Below, in pieces: positions 56,929 to 64,000 of a stretch of 64,000 nt of DNA. This DNA is from Marinicella litoralis (GTDB lineage: Bacteria; Pseudomonadota; Gammaproteobacteria; Xanthomonadales; Marinicellaceae): positions 1,120,286 through 1,184,285 of the forward strand of contig NZ_NIHB01000001.1 of assembly GCF_002591915.1 (NCBI RefSeq), given 5' to 3'. A model generated the notes under the pieces. It saw only the letters and a list, made by a program, of their open reading frames with translations, was not told the origin of the DNA and made no database searches. The first letter of the stretch is position 1, and every line of letters begins with the position of its first letter. A program made the position numbers and the translations under genes.

Positions 56929-59013
56929 ATGAAATCAACAAAACGCAACTCCATCCGCTGGGAACTGGAACAGTTGGCACAAAAGTCCAACCAACCAGCA
57001 AACCACAAAAACAAGCCACCACGCAAGTACCAAAAATTGGGCTTGAATTGGAAAGATGTGGTGATCTTTTCTATGGCCATGTTTTACACCACCCTGTATC
57101 ACGTCAATGCCCATGCACAAAGTACCCAACCGGTCAATTTTGACGACATCTCAAGTGGCATGATGATGTCATTCAATAAAACCACTGGGGAATACCACAG
57201 TTTGCAATTGATCCAAACAGATTACGACGTGGATGTTTTCGGTTTATTGGCAACCATCAAGTTAAAACAAACATTTTTAAACCCGCAAGATCACTGGATC
57301 ACCGAAGGCGTTTACGCCTTTCCCATGGCAGATAAATCTGCGGTCTATCAAATGAAAATGACCATTGGCGATCGGGTCATTGAGGCTGAAATTCATGAAA
57401 AGAAACAAGCCGAACAAATATACCATCAAGCCAAATCTGAAGGCTTAACAGCCACCATGGTTAAACAATACAGACCGAATATTTTCACTACCGATATCGC
57501 CAACATTGGGCCCAATGAAGTCATCAGTGTGGAAATCACATATCAAATGAACTTGCGCTATGACCAGTTGTTTTATGAGTTGCGCTTACCGATGGCCATC
57601 AAGGCACGGTATACCCCAGCCGATGTGGCACCCAATCTGCCCTCCACACAAGGTGTTAACGATTTGAATTACCGCCGCATCGATATCAATTTAGATGCAG
57701 GATTTGCGCTGGATGAAATCCGTTCTTTACATCACAACATTGAAATCGCACAAGACTTTGGCAAACACCAAATCAACCTGACAGATCAACAGCTGTATGA
57801 TACCCAAGATTTTGTTTTGCGCTGGTTTCCAAAGACAGCACAAACCCCAAAGGCGGCGTATTTTTCAGAAATCAAAGACGGCTTTGAATATTCATTGTTG
57901 ATGGTGTTACCACCTAACACCACGGAAAAATCCAGCAAGCCACGCAACATGACATTCATTATGGACACATCGGGCTCCATGCATGGACAGGCCCTGGATC
58001 AATCTAAAGATGCCTTGTTGTTTGCCTTGTCCGAAATGGATGACAGCACCTATTTCAATGTGATTGATTTTGACTCAACAGCCAAAGTATTGTTTCCAGC
58101 ATCGCGCAAAGCGTCACCGGATAACATCAGTTTGGCATTGGATTTTGTCGATGGGTTCAGTTCCGATGGCGGAACCAATATGGCACCGGCTTTACAAATT
58201 GCCATGCAAAGGGAAAACATCAAGTCCGGTTACTTGAATCAAATCATTTTTATGACCGATGGATCGGTGGGCAATGAATCGATGATTTTTGATCAAATCG
58301 CCCAAGACATCGCAGATGCCAGGTTGTTTACCATCGCCATTGGACCCGCACCCAATAATTATTTCATGAGTAAGGCGGCCATGTTTGGTAAAGGAACTTA
58401 TACCCATATCGCCAGTTTAGATCAAGTGAATGATTCAATGAGTCATTTATTTGCCCAATTGGCCAGGCCGGCTCTGACCGATGTGGCTGTGGCATGGAAT
58501 ACCTCTGGAGTGATTCAAAGCCCAAGCGTGATTCCTGATTTGTACATGGACCAACCTTTAGTAATCACCAGTAAAGTACCCGTCAGCCAAGCCAAAGCGG
58601 CACCGTCATTTGTCGTCAGTGGTTTGATCGGTGAAAACAACCAACAAAAAAGTTGGTCAGAACAAATCACCTTAAACCATGATGGCCAAACCACCGGTAT
58701 CGCTCGATTATGGGCACGCAATCAAGTCGAAGAAATGACCGATGATTTGATGCTGGGCGGCGATTATACAGTGCTGAAAGAGGAGATCATCGAACTGGCC
58801 TTGAAACACCGTTTAATCACTGAGTTTACTGCCATGGTGGCGGTTGACAGAAATCCGGATGCCAGCCGATTGGCTCGAGCGAGGGCTGCAGCGCAGGCGA
58901 ATGCGGCTGCTCATCAAGCCCCTTTTCCTCAGGGATCACTGGGCTGGCGCTGGAACCTGTTGTTTGGCATGTTGTTGCTGTCAGGGGCACTGATGTTACA
59001 GAGACGGGTTTAA
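56929..59013 (+). CDS. Marine proteobacterial sortase target protein (VIT and VWA domains)
   Basis: A 694-aa surface protein of the TIGR03788 type. A long cytoplasmic leader (1-43) precedes a signal segment (about 44-63). The VIT domain covers about 75-200 (TFLNPQDHWITEGVYAFPM, QAEQIYHQAKSEG) and the VWA domain about 340-500, with MIDAS FIMDTSGSMHG (Asp346). The C-terminus has APFPQGSLGW, a hydrophobic segment and QRRV, i.e. a sorting signal, membrane span and basic tail. The sortase gene follows after 25 bp. Confidence 0.92.
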   Translation: MKSTKRNSIRWELEQLAQKSNQPANHKNKPPRKYQKLGLNWKDVVIFSMAMFYTTLYHVNAHAQSTQPVNFDDISSGMMMSFNKTTGEYHSLQLIQTDYDVDVFGLLATIKLKQTFLNPQDHWITEGVYAFPMADKSAVYQMKMTIGDRVIEAEIHEKKQAEQIYHQAKSEGLTATMVKQYRPNIFTTDIANIGPNEVISVEITYQMNLRYDQLFYELRLPMAIKARYTPADVAPNLPSTQGVNDLNYRRIDINLDAGFALDEIRSLHHNIEIAQDFGKHQINLTDQQLYDTQDFVLRWFPKTAQTPKAAYFSEIKDGFEYSLLMVLPPNTTEKSSKPRNMTFIMDTSGSMHGQALDQSKDALLFALSEMDDSTYFNVIDFDSTAKVLFPASRKASPDNISLALDFVDGFSSDGGTNMAPALQIAMQRENIKSGYLNQIIFMTDGSVGNESMIFDQIAQDIADARLFTIAIGPAPNNYFMSKAAMFGKGTYTHIASLDQVNDSMSHLFAQLARPALTDVAVAWNTSGVIQSPSVIPDLYMDQPLVITSKVPVSQAKAAPSFVVSGLIGENNQQKSWSEQITLNHDGQTTGIARLWARNQVEEMTDDLMLGGDYTVLKEEIIELALKHRLITEFTAMVAVDRNPDASRLARARAAAQANAAAHQAPFPQGSLGWRWNLLFGMLLLSGALMLQRRV

Positions 59014-59038
59014 TAGAACGCAAATAATGGAGTCAATG

Positions 59039-59674
59039 ATGATCAACACCAAACCTCAATCCTACACTTTAGCAGCCAGGCATAAAAGTTCTTTTAAGGC
59101 CGGCCGTCAATCCAAAAAAATGTGGGTCAAAATCATCATCGCCACATTATTATCCGTGGGCAGCTGGCAAGTAGGTTCCTCCGTCTACTTGCTGGCCAAA
59201 GCCCAGTTGGCACATTATTTTATCGCCGATGCGTGGCAAGCGACGTTACAAGAGGGTCAAGTGCACAAACCATGGGACTGGGCAGACACCCATCCAGTGG
59301 CCAAGATGAGTTTCCCTGACTTACAACAAAGTGCTTATGTGTTAGAGGGGGCCAATGGCAGAAACATGGCTTTTGGTCCAGCCCGAACCCTTACTTCAGG
59401 AATGCCTGGTGATTCACTGTCCACCGTTATCAGCGCACACAATGACTCACATTTCAGTTTTTTGGGACAAGTTAAACTCAATGATGTGATACAAATTGAA
59501 ACGCTCAAAGGCCAATTCAACTATCAAGTGACAGATCTTCGGGTAATCGACTCCAGCCAACAACAGATCAACATCAACCCACAAGATGAGTTGATCTTAA
59601 CCACCTGTTACCCATTCAATGCACTACAAACTGGTGGCAAAATGCGCTATCAAGTGACGGCATCACGGCGATGA
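59039..59674 (+). CDS. Class GN (marine proteobacterial) sortase
   Basis: A 211-aa membrane-anchored sortase with one N-terminal membrane segment. Family landmarks are VISAHNDSHFSFLG (catalytic His), ILTTCYPFNALQTGGKMRYQV with the catalytic Cys190 and the later Arg. It should anchor the VIT/VWA protein encoded just upstream. Several ATGs are close; 59039 has GGAG 6 nt upstream, and 59027 is the longest option. The 3' end is repeated at 60343-60379. Confidence 0.92.
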   Translation: MINTKPQSYTLAARHKSSFKAGRQSKKMWVKIIIATLLSVGSWQVGSSVYLLAKAQLAHYFIADAWQATLQEGQVHKPWDWADTHPVAKMSFPDLQQSAYVLEGANGRNMAFGPARTLTSGMPGDSLSTVISAHNDSHFSFLGQVKLNDVIQIETLKGQFNYQVTDLRVIDSSQQQININPQDELILTTCYPFNALQTGGKMRYQVTASRR

Positions 59675-59684
59675 TCGGCATCAA
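59649..59684 (+). repeat. Direct repeat copy 1: 3' end of the sortase gene
   Basis: ATCAAGTGACGGCATCACGG and the next 16 bases end the sortase gene and run 10 bp past its stop. Copy 2 at 60343-60379 differs by two substitutions and one inserted base. Both encode QVTASRR and stop. Confidence 0.85.
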
Positions 59685-59737
59685 TGCGAGAACCCATCGC
59701 CTCCTTGTTGTTTAATATTTGTTGAATTATTTAGTGT

Positions 59738-59784
59738 GTATATGTATATATTTAAAGCGACAATCTTTATATATATGTATATAC
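59738..59784. repeat. AT-rich imperfect palindrome after the sortase gene
   Basis: Arms of 20 bp (59738-59757 and 59765-59784) match at 17 positions around a CGACAAT loop, with TATATGTATATA present directly in both. It lies in the 277-bp AT-rich gap 59675-59951. Possibly a transcript end or a protein-binding site. Confidence 0.5.
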
Positions 59785-59951
59785 TTATTACCAAGGTTTG
59801 ATTTCAAACATAAAAAGTAAAATCAATAAACAACCATAAATTACCGAATTGATTGTTTGAGCTGGGCTACTTTTGCACGATTATTCTCAAAACCTAATTC
59901 AAATAAACAATCAAGTTTGACTGAAATTTAATAACAAAAAAGAGGAAAAAA

Positions 59952-60317
59952 ATGAAAAAACACGCGCTATTGATACTGTTGATCCCATTTGGCCTTTACT
60001 GGTCTGCGAGTGATGCGGAAGCAGAAAGTTCATTGATGTGGTTTCCAGCAGACAGTTATTTGAGTTGTCCAGAAGCATGCAAGAAATCGCCCGGTTATCA
60101 GTATGCTGTAGTGGCTACCATTTGGGAAAGAGATCAACATGGCGATGGGTTTATTTGTACGCAAAAAGACAATGGTAGACCTGGCTGGAACTTTCCAGAT
60201 TACAAAAAAAGCCTGTGTGGTGTAGGCAAAGATGGCAAAGAAATCATCGGAGCCATTTCTCATTGCCTGTGCAGTAAAGAGGGCATATATGCACCTGTTA
60301 AAGTCAGAAAAGAATAA
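59952..60317 (+). CDS. Small Cys-containing secreted protein of unknown function
   Basis: A 121-aa protein with a signal peptide (about 1-24, ending AEAE) and six Cys in the mature part (SCPEACKK, FICTQ, LCGVG, HCLCS), likely disulfide-bonded in the periplasm or outside. GAGG stands upstream of the ATG. I recognise no family. The gene is bracketed by copies of the sortase 3' end, which suggests it arrived as a unit. Confidence 0.7.
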   Translation: MKKHALLILLIPFGLYWSASDAEAESSLMWFPADSYLSCPEACKKSPGYQYAVVATIWERDQHGDGFICTQKDNGRPGWNFPDYKKSLCGVGKDGKEIIGAISHCLCSKEGIYAPVKVRKE

Positions 60318-60342
60318 CAGCAAGCACTGCCTACTGTATCCA

Positions 60343-60379
60343 ATCAAGTGACGGCTTCACGGCGATGATAGGCCATCAA
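60343..60379 (+). repeat. Direct repeat copy 2: duplicated sortase 3' end
   Basis: ATCAAGTGACGGCTTCACGG and the next 17 bases match the sortase 3' end at 59649-59684 and still read QVTASRR-stop. It has no gene attached and lies just before the 3' end of the integrase gene. Confidence 0.85.
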
Positions 60380-60393
60380 ACAAACCGTGATGT

Positions 60394-61356
60394 TTACAAA
60401 TAATCAAGAGGGCTGAATAGGTTTTTTTCGCTGAGTGCCTTGACCACATGGGTATAAATCATGGTGGTCTCTAAGTTTTTATGTCCCAACAGTTCCTGGA
60501 TGGTTCTGATGTCGATGCCGGCTTGCAATAAATGTGTCGCATAAGAATGGCGGAGTGTGTGGGCAGTGATTTTCTTGTTAATGGCCGATTTAATCACCGC
60601 TTTTTTAAGGTTTCTGTTGTACGTACTTGCTGACACATGGTGCCTGCTGATTTGACCTGTTGCTGGGTCTTTGGACACTTTATTCATTTGAAAAAGATAC
60701 TGCCACTTGAATGCTTTGTCTGCGTTTGGGTCTTTTCTTTTCAGTGCCTTAGGTAGTTCGGCTGATCCATAACCCATGGATAGATCTAATGTATGAGACT
60801 GCTTATTTTCAGCGATCAATGCATGAAATGGTTTCACCAGACACTGGGGCATCGGTAATGACCTGTCATCCAATGACTTGTTGTCCCAAATGGTGATACG
60901 GTTGTAAGCAAAATCCAAGTCTTTTATCCTTAAATTTATGGCTTCTGATATTCTTAAACCACAACCATAAATCGTCTGAGTGATGAGTTTATAGATGGAG
61001 TCTTTAAATTGATCAATCAGGTGTTTGGTCTCTTGGGCACTTAATACGGTTGGTAGGTGAACACTTTGTTTGGCTCTGAGGTCATTGATGTTGTCGCCTT
61101 CAAAAGAAATATCGAGCACTTTGTGATAGAGGAATAATATGGCATTGAATGCTTGGTTTTGAGTTGCAGCAGCGACCTTTCTGCTTGAAGTCAAATGAGT
61201 CAAAAACTGTTCGATTTCAGTTTTACCCATTTGCTTGGGATGTCGCTTGTGGTGAAATAGGATGTATTGTTTGATCCAGTAAATATATATCTTGGCGGTT
61301 TCTTCACTGTAATGCAGGAATTTTATTTTAACGTTAACTTGATCAAGTAATTTCAT
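60394..61356 (-). CDS. intI: Integron integrase (IntI-type tyrosine recombinase)
   Basis: A 320-aa tyrosine recombinase. Catalytic residues are Arg135 (GCGLRISEA), His266 and Arg269 (HTLRHSYATHLL), His292 (LLGHKNLETT) and Tyr301 (MIYTHV). It carries the extra patch that marks integron integrases, LPKALKRKDPNADKAFKWQY at about 201-220, which matches IntI1 (ALERKYPRAGHSWPW) from memory. The N-terminus (LLDQVNVKIKFLHYSEETAK) also follows IntI. It looks intact. It is transcribed away from a row of plus-strand cassette ORFs, the normal integron layout. Confidence 0.92.
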   Translation of the reverse strand: MKLLDQVNVKIKFLHYSEETAKIYIYWIKQYILFHHKRHPKQMGKTEIEQFLTHLTSSRKVAAATQNQAFNAILFLYHKVLDISFEGDNINDLRAKQSVHLPTVLSAQETKHLIDQFKDSIYKLITQTIYGCGLRISEAINLRIKDLDFAYNRITIWDNKSLDDRSLPMPQCLVKPFHALIAENKQSHTLDLSMGYGSAELPKALKRKDPNADKAFKWQYLFQMNKVSKDPATGQISRHHVSASTYNRNLKKAVIKSAINKKITAHTLRHSYATHLLQAGIDIRTIQELLGHKNLETTMIYTHVVKALSEKNLFSPLDYL

Positions 61357-61541
61357 AAATGCATTTTAATCTCAATATAATCAGATAATAATGCATTTAT
61401 GCATTTTAAACTCCTATATTCCTCTAATAAACGCAATTTGGGCATAAAAACATCAATATTTTGACCCAATAGGCTGTATTTTTAGACAAAAGCGCCCATT
61501 TTTTCTTTTACAAAGGGTTAAAATGCATGTTTAATAAGTTG
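61357..61541. promoter_or_regulatory. intI-cassette intergenic region with presumed attI
   Basis: Between the integrase start and the first cassette. It holds ATGCATTT at 61359, 61391 and 61399 and a related ATGCATG at 61523. It also has a TTGACC (61461) with TAGACA 16 bp on, which could be the cassette promoter Pc, and CTGT-N8-ACAA at 61474-61489, one base from a LexA box. The attI crossover is the G at 61541, since cassette 1 begins there. Promoter and LexA calls are weak. Confidence 0.5.
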
Positions 61542-61992
61542 TTATCTGGAAAAATAATATGAACATACTAAAGAACATACTAGGTACGCTTTTTTTGATT
61601 TTCGGGCTATTTACAATAGTCTTATATCTGTTGGGTATTTTCTCAATAGATATTGGGGGTTATCAAATACCGATGGGGCGCAATTTTAGTACTGAATTTT
61701 GGGGGTATATTAGTGCGGTGCTGTTACTTGCTGGTGGCTATATGCTTATTAAAAATAACCTTGTATCAAGGTGGCTTTTAATCGGTTCGGTGATTTTTTA
61801 TATTCTAGGTGCAACAATGCCTCATTGGTCTTCGCATGGTTTTGGCGTATTCAATTACCTCATGAATCAATTTTATGTTTCATTATCAGTGCGCGTTTTA
61901 TTAACAGTATTGGCAATTTATGCAATTCACAAAGTTATTGCAGATAACAAGTCGGTCCAATCGACGCCTAAAGGCGCGCTTGACCTCTGACG
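61542..61992 (+). mobile_element. Integron gene cassette 1
   Basis: Starts at the TTATCT of core site GTTATCT (61541-61547) and ends at the G of the next core site GTTATGC (61992). The R'' box of its attC, AGATAAC, is the exact reverse complement of GTTATCT, which confirms the cassette ends. It carries one ORF (61559-61990). Confidence 0.87.
61559..61990 (+). CDS. Cassette-encoded four-TM membrane protein
   Basis: A 143-aa protein with four likely membrane segments (about 7-27, 49-66, 70-88 and 108-130). No family is recognised. The last dozen or so residues (SVQSTPKGALDL) are encoded by the attC site itself: the CGCCTAAAGGCG hairpin gives TPKGA. This is a usual trait of cassette genes. The ATG is 18 nt after the core site, with only a weak ribosome binding site. 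Confidence 0.75.
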   Translation: MNILKNILGTLFLIFGLFTIVLYLLGIFSIDIGGYQIPMGRNFSTEFWGYISAVLLLAGGYMLIKNNLVSRWLLIGSVIFYILGATMPHWSSHGFGVFNYLMNQFYVSLSVRVLLTVLAIYAIHKVIADNKSVQSTPKGALDL

Positions 61993-61998
61993 TTATGC
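61942..61998 (+). other. attC site of cassette 1
   Basis: A 57-bp site in the order R'' AGATAAC (61942-61948), 5-nt spacer, L'' GGTCCAA (61954-61960), a central hairpin CGCCT-AA-AGGCG, L' TTGACC (61980-61985), 6-nt spacer and R' GTTATGC (61992-61998). L'' pairs with L' except for one extra C, the extrahelical base that sets strand choice in attC sites. Confidence 0.9.
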
Positions 61999-62014
61999 GA
62001 CACCAAGGAATCAT

Positions 62015-62230
62015 ATGCCTCTAGAAATACTCGCCGAAGGTTTTTTCGGTGGTCTACTTCGTTTGATTGGCTGGATCTTCGTTGACATCCTGTTCGAGCT
62101 AGCTATTCGCGGACTAGGATATTTAATCCTTAGGCCGTTCACTAAAGTAAATGTTGATAGTATTGCATGCGTCTTTACTGGTCTGGCGGTATGGATACTG
62201 GTGGTTTTTATATTTATATTCTACTTCTAG
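62015..62230 (+). CDS. Cassette-encoded small membrane protein
   Basis: A 71-aa membrane protein (MPLEILAEGFFGGLLRLIGW, LGYLILRPF, then a hydrophobic C-terminal segment). Small proteins of this pattern are familiar to me from integron cassettes. AAGGA 5 nt before the ATG supports the start. It begins 17 bp after the cassette junction G^TTATGC. The attC of this cassette could not be found. Confidence 0.7.
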   Translation: MPLEILAEGFFGGLLRLIGWIFVDILFELAIRGLGYLILRPFTKVNVDSIACVFTGLAVWILVVFIFIFYF

Positions 62231-62902
62231 CTAATCAACTTTGAAGAATCTATTTTTTAATAGGCTAAATCGTTTAAGGTCATGTGAAATATTCAAACAA
62301 ACGTTGTTCTGTCCAAGAAACTAGATTTTTAGGCGCGTTAGTTCATGCGCATAATCAGCAAGGTAGGTTAGGCTGAGCTCCGCGAAGCCCAACACCACAA
62401 GCTTCAATCACACCATAATGCAATGATTCATAGAACCAACCATCATCCCTAAAAAACAATTACATTAAATCAACCATCTCATGTTGGGCTTCGTGCCTCA
62501 GCGCCAACCTACATTTCTTTAAATTATTCACCGAAATTGTGGTTTTCGGATAATGAACTAATCAGGGACAGTCACTGATTAAAATACTGATGAAAAGTTG
62601 GTCATCCGCTCTTTGTACGGCAACATCAATGCATCAAGAAATGCGGTGTAGTGAATATGCATTATTGAGTTATTTACGCGGACAGCCAAAGTGATAATCA
62701 GGAAAATGTGCACGTTTACCCAGTAATAAGCGTAAATTAACGTATTGATGCACAACTATCCGCCCATTTCCAGATAATCATGCAATCAAAAAATCCCTTC
62801 AAAGTAAGAAATCAATGACTTACAATGAACCCTTTAAAAAAAGCGTGCACGAATTTAAACCAATATCTTGTTAGATGGCACTGATGCACTTTTAATAAAT
62901 TG
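62231..62902. other. Gene-free stretch inside the cassette array
   Basis: No convincing ORF on either strand. It contains the inverted-repeat element at 62363-62512, a small dyad (TAATCA ... TGATTA, 62559-62581) and, at the right end, 24 bases that resemble the attI side of cassette 1. It may be an ORF-less cassette plus a decayed attC. Confidence 0.5.
62363..62512. repeat. MITE-like inverted repeat element
   Basis: Arm 1 (62363-62394, GTAGGTTAGGCTGAGC ... GCCCAACA) and arm 2 (62482-62512, TGTTGGGCTTCG ... CCAACCTAC) are imperfect reverse complements around 87 bp. The arms match a GTAGGTTGGGC...GCCCAACA element that I recall as widely dispersed in proteobacteria. No transposase inside. Confidence 0.65.
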
Positions 62903-63423
62903 TTAGCTCTCTTGAGGGATTGAATGGAAACTAATGAAGGCCGTGTATATTTTGCTTTGGATGGTGATGACTTTGACCCGGATTCATTAACTGAGTTTTT
63001 GGGTGTCGAGCCAACATCGATTATGCGAAAAGGAACAAGAATCCCAGAGAAGTCTCCAGCCAAAAGTTCTTGGGAATTCTCTACTGAAAATATAGTTAAT
63101 AATTTTATTGATGTGTTTGCTATGGCTGAATCAATTACCGAGCAACTAGAACCAAAAAAGACTCGTATCATCGAAGCCATTGATAAATTTAACTTGGTAG
63201 CTCGATTAGAAGTGGTTCTTTGGATTTCCATGAATGAAGAGCACTCAACTCCAGCAATAGGTTTTGAGCCAAATACAATAAAGTTTTTATCTGAAGTCGG
63301 GGCGTTTATTGATGTCGACACTTATAAGCACTAGAGCTAACAAGTTGCTGCATTTGACAGTCAAAAGCGTCATGCCTTTTGTTCCAAAAGCCACGCCACT
63401 TCTGCCTGCAAATGAGCAAGGCG
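62903..63423 (+). mobile_element. Integron gene cassette with DUF4279 gene
   Basis: Runs from TTAGCT of core site GTTAGCT (62902-62908) to the G of GTTAAAC (63423). Its R'' box AGCTAAC is the exact reverse complement of GTTAGCT, which fixes both ends. Confidence 0.87.
62924..63334 (+). CDS. Cassette-encoded DUF4279-like protein
   Basis: A 136-aa protein that fits DUF4279 by eye: VYFALDGDDFDPDSLTEFLG, VEPTSIMRKGTR, SSWEFST and a C-terminal half with LEVVLWISMN and AIGFEPNTIKFLSEVG. DUF4279 genes occur often in integron cassettes. GAGG lies 8 nt before the ATG. The TAG stop abuts the R'' box of the attC. Confidence 0.82.
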   Translation: METNEGRVYFALDGDDFDPDSLTEFLGVEPTSIMRKGTRIPEKSPAKSSWEFSTENIVNNFIDVFAMAESITEQLEPKKTRIIEAIDKFNLVARLEVVLWISMNEEHSTPAIGFEPNTIKFLSEVGAFIDVDTYKH

Positions 63424-63429
63424 TTAAAC
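63335..63429 (+). other. attC site of the DUF4279 cassette
   Basis: A 95-bp site: R'' AGCTAAC (63335-63341), 5-nt spacer, L'' GCTGCAT (63347-63353), central hairpin with CTTTTG/CAAAAG and GCGT/ACGC pairs, L' ATGAGC (63412-63417), 5-nt spacer, R' GTTAAAC (63423-63429). L'' pairs with L' except for one extra base. Confidence 0.88.
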
Positions 63430-63603
63430 CCCCAAAACCCTGTCTCAATATCATCCCACCTTTAATTAAAAAAACTTCAGTTTTGAAATTGGTTTAAAAT
63501 TAAATACAAACTCAAAGGGTCGTTTGAGTAATGGCTGCACTCGTTGTGGGACCTGTTGATGGTCGTTGAGTTCAGTGTCACTTAATTAATACTGGAGGAT
63601 AGT

Positions 63604-63972
63604 ATGGCAAACTATATTGATGGATTCGTTCTGCCAGTTCCGCGTGATCAACTTCAGAGGTATGGGGAAGTGGCTGAAAAAGTCGCCAAGATATGGAAGG
63701 AATATGGCGCACTTGAGTACTTTGAGTACATCAGTGATGACGCTGCCATGGAGGGCACGCGAAGCTTCACAGAGGTGGTCAATAGCAAGGAAGATGAAGC
63801 CGTTATTTTTGGCTGGGTGGTTTTTACTTCTCGTGAAGCACGTGATCTTGCCAATGAAAAAGTGGCTGCTGATCCCAGAATGACAGACTTGGTCAGTCCG
63901 CTGGTTTCGACCGCGCGACCGATTTTTGATGCCAAAAAAATGGTGTATGGTGGGTTTCGCTCTTTGGTGTAG
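63604..63972 (+). CDS. DUF1428-family protein, probably cassette-encoded
   Basis: A 122-aa protein of DUF1428: YIDGFVLPVPRDQLQRYGEV, WKEYGALEYFEYISDD, EAVIFGWVVFTSREARDLAN and FDAKKMVYGGFRSLV at the end. GGAGG 7 nt before the ATG. It follows the core site at 63423 by 180 bp; that leader holds two small hairpins (63471-63484 and 63510-63529). DUF1428 genes are common in cassettes, but its own attC would lie past the window end, so the gene could also be ordinary chromosome. Confidence 0.85.
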   Translation: MANYIDGFVLPVPRDQLQRYGEVAEKVAKIWKEYGALEYFEYISDDAAMEGTRSFTEVVNSKEDEAVIFGWVVFTSREARDLANEKVAADPRMTDLVSPLVSTARPIFDAKKMVYGGFRSLV

Positions 63973-64000
63973 TCAGCAGGGTCCGTGCTGAATATCAAGT

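Follow-up and report, generated by a model that had tools for sequence, protein, structure and literature searches.

How did the end of a sortase gene come to stand twice in the chromosome of a Marinicella strain, on either side of a small gene and directly beside an integron integrase gene? We addressed this question in a window of 64,000 nucleotides (G000:C1:1120286-1184285, G000 being the strain's own 3.35-Mb genome). The window contains a direct repeat (59649-59684 and 60343-60379) whose copies lie 694 bp apart and are identical in 34 of 37 columns with one gap. The gapped alignment of the pair has an E value of 2e-7, and its ungapped core spans 31 nt at 94% identity (59649-59679 vs 60343-60373). 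Copy 1 (plus strand) consists of the last 26 nt of the sortase gene, including the stop codon, and the 10 nt beyond, and encodes the end of the sortase (...YQVTASRR-stop). Copy 2 (plus strand) reads QVTASRR-stop in the same frame with one synonymous change, has no gene attached and lies 14 bp from the integrase gene intI. An earlier, sequence-only reading of this DNA had described a 36/37-bp repeat encoding QVTASRR-stop, with a second copy 694 bp on that lacks a gene, and our alignment and reading confirm that description.

The duplicated end belongs to a class GN sortase gene (59027-59674, plus strand; TIGR03784, 196.6 bits, cut-off 158.25), which adjoins a gene for a marine proteobacterial sortase target protein (VIT and VWA; 56929-59013, plus strand; TIGR03788, 614.4 bits, cut-off 551.65). 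From left to right, the target gene is followed by the sortase gene with repeat copy 1 at its end; an AT-rich palindrome and a 121-aa gene come next, and repeat copy 2 separates them from an intI gene that points left. To the right of intI follow attI and two genes for small membrane proteins, then what is left of a second integron platform, with a DUF4279 gene, and further genes up to mnmG, which starts 5780 bp past the sortase stop codon.

The DNA between the repeat copies includes two features that the sequence-only reading had pointed out, an AT-rich palindrome and a Cys-containing secreted-type ORF, and both are present. The palindrome, which is imperfect and lies between the sortase gene and the small gene (59738-59784), folds into a hairpin of -6.2 kcal/mol that is not exceptionally stable (z -1.67; 13 of 200 shuffles equally good). 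The 121-aa orphan gene (59952-60317, plus strand) has, as judged by eye, a plausible ribosome-binding site, a signal-like N-terminus of the secreted type and six cysteines. As a guess at function, this sequence suggests a small secreted disulfide protein. We identified no match to the protein in NCBIfam, Pfam, PHROGs or PADLOC and no homologue in 60 relatives (among them the 17 genomes that make up the rest of the genus), in 397 genomes of the order besides the strain's own (sampled evenly from a larger set; some are also among the 60 relatives) or in plasmids, phages and viral contigs. A pattern scan of genome contigs, the reach of which is close relatives, also found no relative of the protein, and a single-sequence structure model had a mean pLDDT of 47.6, too low for a fold search. 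The insert contains no recombinase ORF and occurs at one place only in the genome. Its low GC content (36.8%, vs 46.6% for the sortase gene) and its orphan gene suggest a foreign origin.

The repeat itself is unique to its site, as a pattern scan of the genome found no further copy at up to 3 mismatches (reversed-pattern control, 0). The two copies fold no better than shuffled sequences (z 0.24 and -0.06), and no terminator-like site was called inside the repeat; one was called just outside copy 2 (60317-60337, minus strand). On the shuffle-level folding and the lack of a terminator call within the repeat, we rejected a terminator function for it. We also rejected a known RNA element at this locus, as an Rfam search of positions 58500-64000 returned no match up to an E value of 1.

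To gauge how often such repeats are expected, we scanned 1.289 Mb of the genome's own contig C1 for unique direct-repeat pairs with a score of at least 22 that do not lie within one gene. We identified 49 pairs, with 41 at distances of 150-1500 bp, 7 at 1500-3000 bp, 1 at 3000-6000 bp and 0 at 6000-12000 bp. The near range (150-3000 bp) holds 48 pairs, about 0.3 being expected there by chance, vs 1 pair in the far range (3-12 kb), and chance is therefore a poor account of the sortase repeat. The near pairs are mostly intergenic repeat clusters or paralogues. The list of pairs leaves out those in which each copy lies entirely within a gene. Two of the listed pairs enclose a single intact gene and have a copy at another gene's 3' end: the pair at the sortase gene and a pair at atpC.

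We identified the sortase in 41 of the 61 genomes searched and in 14 of the 18 genomes of the genus, the strain's own included in both counts. Longer loci were compared for 11 of the 13 genus relatives with a sortase match; in the two that were left out (G006 and G014), the matches run into contig ends. None of these 11 relatives repeats the sortase 3' end, the best direct repeat of the 100 bases around the stop codon being 16 nt (score 13) over the 4.4-8 kb scanned downstream. The sequence-only reading had named one state of affairs that would speak against an insertion, namely that all relatives carry the gene and the two repeats. This is not what we found, as 0 of the 11 relatives repeat the end and the rest of the genus (17 genomes) lacks the 121-aa gene.

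The relatives reveal a hotspot of gene content in Marinicella between the sortase gene and mnmG. From sortase stop to mnmG start, the interval measures 788, 2803, 2896, 3150, 3589, 4140, 4468, 5780, 6220 and 6932 bp in 10 genomes (own included); G004 and G011 fall outside this count, as no mnmG was matched in the stretch fetched. The contents of the interval mostly differ between genomes, and some pairs share pieces (G003 and G015, 2.6 kb at 72%; G005, G007 and G010, about 1 kb at 70%; G008 and G010, 0.6 kb at 77%). At the left border, the best DNA match of the sortase gene end within the genus is that of G010 (about 81% over 63 nt), and similarity fades 8 to 22 nt before the gene end (G010, G016, G017 and G003). 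Direct repeats were found in the interval of 2 of the 9 other genomes (G007 and G017; a tandem 91-bp pair in G016 was not counted). This is weakly above the background, which we put by eye at about 14 repeat-bearing places per 1.289 Mb, or 4-5% of 4-kb stretches. Duplications of other types, such as those in cassette arrays, also appeared in a scan of 403 kb of the relatives' loci, indicating that these bacteria duplicate DNA often.

The neighbor of copy 2 is a chromosomal integron with an integrase gene, an adjoining attI, and attC-like sites with cassettes. The integrase gene intI (60394-61356, minus strand; TIGR02249, 372.8 bits, cut-off 265) is followed by the attI core TAAAATGCATGTTTAATAAGTTGTTA (61519-61545, plus strand), pieces of which are 82-96% identical to the attI regions of seven other platforms; an attI stretch around AATAAATTGTT or AATAAGTTGTT is common to most other platforms read. 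Cassette 1 encodes a 143-aa membrane-type protein (61559-61990, plus strand) and is followed by an attC-like site (61941-61999, minus strand) whose bottom strand folds at -18.2 kcal/mol with 13 outer pairs. A probable cassette 2 encodes a 71-aa membrane-type protein (62015-62230, plus strand), behind which no clear attC of its own was recognized. An imperfect inverted repeat, GTAGGTTAGGCTGAG...TGTTGGGCTTCG, lies between cassettes (62362-62500) and is of the kind of dispersed intergenic repeats.

Within this array lies the remnant of a second integron platform (62642-62905, minus strand), comprising about 40 N-terminal codons of an intI gene (62642-62767) and an attI region (62709-62905). The remnant is closest to the platform of G003 (tblastn with the G003 IntI, E 8e-6; blastn, 70.6% over 201 nt, E 1.7e-21). 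An older integron platform thus once stood at the same place, its remnant now contained in the first platform's cassette array. Behind the remnant attI are a DUF4279 cassette gene (62924-63334, plus strand; 72.4 bits, cut-off 25) and an attC-like site (63334-63430, minus strand; -40.5 kcal/mol, 20 outer pairs). Both attC-like sites were picked by eye and their folding was computed with RNA energies; an automatic attC scan was discarded, as it demanded full R-box complementarity, missed real sites and returned an equal count in control DNA. The genome encodes a second integron integrase (G000:C1:1040763-1041722) that is 68% identical to the first, near duplicated transposase-like genes that we presume to be of the RAYT type. 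A literature search on Marinicella with integron found no paper.

The site of the integron platform varies in Marinicella: we distinguished by eye 10 left-hand neighborhoods among 15 platforms from 13 genomes, judged from sequence reaching no further than 19 kb (for some platforms only 3-10 kb). Integrons of the type called sedentary have thus often changed place, or been lost and regained, in this genus. The 11 sortase loci compared from relatives contain no IntI-like sequence; those relatives that have IntI carry it elsewhere. Left of the intI stop codon, no sequence is conserved by eye among 18 platforms. At one integron site shared by three genomes (loci L066, L067 and L070), the stretch from a conserved 300-aa gene to the intI 3' end contains 0 genes in G012, one in G002 (183 aa) and two in G009 (115 and 177 aa). 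The back side of intI therefore also collects genes.

We identified two further places with a similar geometry. In the strain's own genome, a stretch of 54 bp from the atpC stop codon through the terminator recurs 1257 bp on (G000:C1:488814-490124), and a 256-aa gene of the secreted type, with no match at E 1e-8 in the other 30 genomes searched, lies between the copies. The atpC gene is present in 16 of the 18 genus genomes (own included), and a second copy of its end was found in none of the 15 relatives that carry it (1143-1427 bp scanned downstream). In the 13 relatives whose atpC 3' side was read, inspection by eye shows a terminator-like hairpin after the gene, and the genes beyond it differ. 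At this position G016 carries AAGCAGTATTGAAAAGCCG, closely like the strain's own genome, which indicates that the 54-bp stretch belongs to the 3' side of atpC itself. Copy 2 can be read by eye as the end of a decayed frame, which we take to be kelch-like; this frame weakens the parallel, and the atpC case may have another origin. The other place is in G021, from another genus of the family, where 45 bp of a helicase gene's 5' end are repeated (locus L081, 6549-7519) and the gene has a start again, with a changed N-terminus. We take the helicase to be lhr-like and the gene between the copies to be KilA-N-like. The repeats of the three scars are unrelated in sequence.

Several explanations of the sortase scar involve a recombinase. 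The sequence-only reading had noted an adjacent tyrosine recombinase gene, which does adjoin and encodes the integron integrase; its hint that this enzyme was the agent finds no support, as the repeat lacks the GTT/AAC core that IntI sites need (0 GTT and 0 AAC in both copies). IntI is thus probably not the agent of the duplication, and the lack of an attC behind the 121-aa gene also disfavors it. Around 17 other intI genes, we found no gene-end repeat beside intI and one, in G021, 1.6-2.5 kb off, which suggests that such duplication is no general mark of integron insertion. The 121-aa gene might still be an integron cassette that IntI inserted at a secondary site, on the side of intI where cassettes do not belong, as it is an orphan secreted-type gene of cassette size beside a complete integron, with 24 loose AAC/GTT pairs in and around the insert outside the repeats. 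None of these pairs meets more than 2 of 4 consensus marks, neither repeat copy contains GTT or AAC, and the one stretch tested for an attC-like fold behind the gene (60313-60396) gives 0 outer pairs, against 13 and 20 in the recognized sites. To our knowledge, a 37-bp duplication is not a product of secondary-site insertion by IntI, and we consider a cassette origin very improbable. Many integrative elements target the 3' ends of tRNA and other genes and leave the gene end restored, and the insert could likewise be a small non-autonomous element inserted site-specifically in trans. Its cassette-like size (694 bp, one gene), the preserved gene end and the comparable arrangements of atpC and of lhr in G021 are consistent with this idea. 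We nevertheless consider it improbable, given an insert with neither a recombinase nor a second genome copy, a 121-aa gene without a relative in the sets searched, repeat copies that are not identical and three cases whose repeats are unrelated. The same lack of a recombinase and of a second genome copy, with the unrelated repeats at the similar scars, leaves a 694-bp circle or an autonomous element unsupported; neither the unit nor an att site was found more than once. That the three scars form one unrecognized class of single-gene elements, often with a secreted orphan, that insert at conserved gene ends and restore the end without a recombinase of their own is a reading to which we give very little credence.

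The duplication could also have arisen locally, by tandem duplication or by template switching during replication slippage, with the 121-aa gene arising or remaining between the copies and no DNA coming in at that step. The excess of near-range over far-range repeats shows that local duplications are common in this chromosome. However, no further sortase-gene sequence turned up ahead of copy 2, and the AT-rich insert and its orphan gene suggest a foreign source. We regard a purely local origin as unlikely.

We favor, with slightly more confidence than doubt, the explanation that the scar records the capture of a DNA fragment that shared homology on one side only, and that this capture left a second copy of the gene end. 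The sequence-only reading had proposed an insertion at the gene's 3' end with the coding end regenerated; the preserved gene end fits that proposal, and the insertion at the sortase 3' end, which we infer from the sequence, is plausible. The interval between sortase and mnmG is a site of gene-content exchange between Marinicella strains, and under one-ended capture the fragment would have carried a sortase 3' end together with one of two cargoes, the 121-aa gene or the integron. The fragment would have joined at one end by homologous recombination and at the other through an illegitimate joint near the sortase gene end, that is, by homology-facilitated illegitimate recombination (HFIR), which is defined in PMC3240628 along with a mention of circularization with single crossing-over. 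Alternatively, the fragment may have been ligated into a circle that entered by one crossover. Either route would yield an intact sortase gene, then the captured gene, then a short tail of another sortase allele before intI. From this scar we infer that there was such a fragment, which way it moved and how it was joined; either the 121-aa gene or the integron may be the newcomer, and HFIR and a ligated circle would leave the same trace.

Several observations bear on one-ended capture. The varying length and contents of the interval, the lack of the repeat in the 11 relatives compared and the lower GC content of the insert all speak for it. On its inner side the repeat extends 10 nt beyond the stop codon, to near the point where similarity between species fades, a fit that is close but not exact; its outer edge coincides with no feature, which an illegitimate joint would explain. 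In all three scars, one repeat edge is near the start of strain-specific content (after the stop codon, after the terminator, before the gene start) and the other is at no feature, as one-ended capture predicts. The sortase copies differ in 3 of 37 columns, as two alleles would, and are closer to each other than the gene end is to that of G010. A ComEC gene is present in the genome, but it was matched in E. coli of the control set as well and so does not establish competence. With 37 bp, the shared stretch comes close to the minimum length for RecA-dependent recombination, which PMC2884548 cites as about 30 bp for E. coli; this counts against capture.

The scar is thus most likely an ordinary trace of gene turnover in a strain-variable spot rather than a sign of some new type of mobile element. 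If this is right, short duplicated gene ends can be taken as fossils of one-ended gene capture that mark entry points of strain-specific genes and of whole integron platforms. With the varied integron sites of Marinicella, the relocation of 'sedentary' integrons becomes a testable question, and how the integron shifts its position within the genus merits more study than the repeat does.

Several known systems resemble this locus. Integrative elements at gene 3' ends duplicate the gene end and restore it at the far side of the insert. The sortase scar shares with them a duplicated gene end that flanks an insert; unlike them, its insert encodes no recombinase, it occurs at a single site, and its repeat is without the core of the neighboring IntI. 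Small repeat-flanked variable segments are described in PMC2884548, where 10-18% of variable segments are repeat-flanked, most repeats are under 30 bp and homology-assisted illegitimate recombination is discussed. The repeats are treated there as causes of deletion, and strains of one species are compared.

In the Vibrio cholerae T6SS effector arrays, for which PMC5361080 proposes HFIR as the route of stepwise gene displacement, an incoming module is likewise anchored by a conserved stretch and the 3' ends of older genes are shifted downstream. Whole immunity genes and effector 3' ends remain in those arrays, whereas 37 bp of the sortase gene remain here and the new gene is an orphan. HFIR, as reported in PMC3240628 for three naturally competent species and E. 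coli conjugation, combines one homologous with one illegitimate end and captures DNA beside a conserved gene, as we propose for the sortase locus, where the process is read from the scar. On this reading, the sortase scar would be a further instance of this known kind of gene capture.
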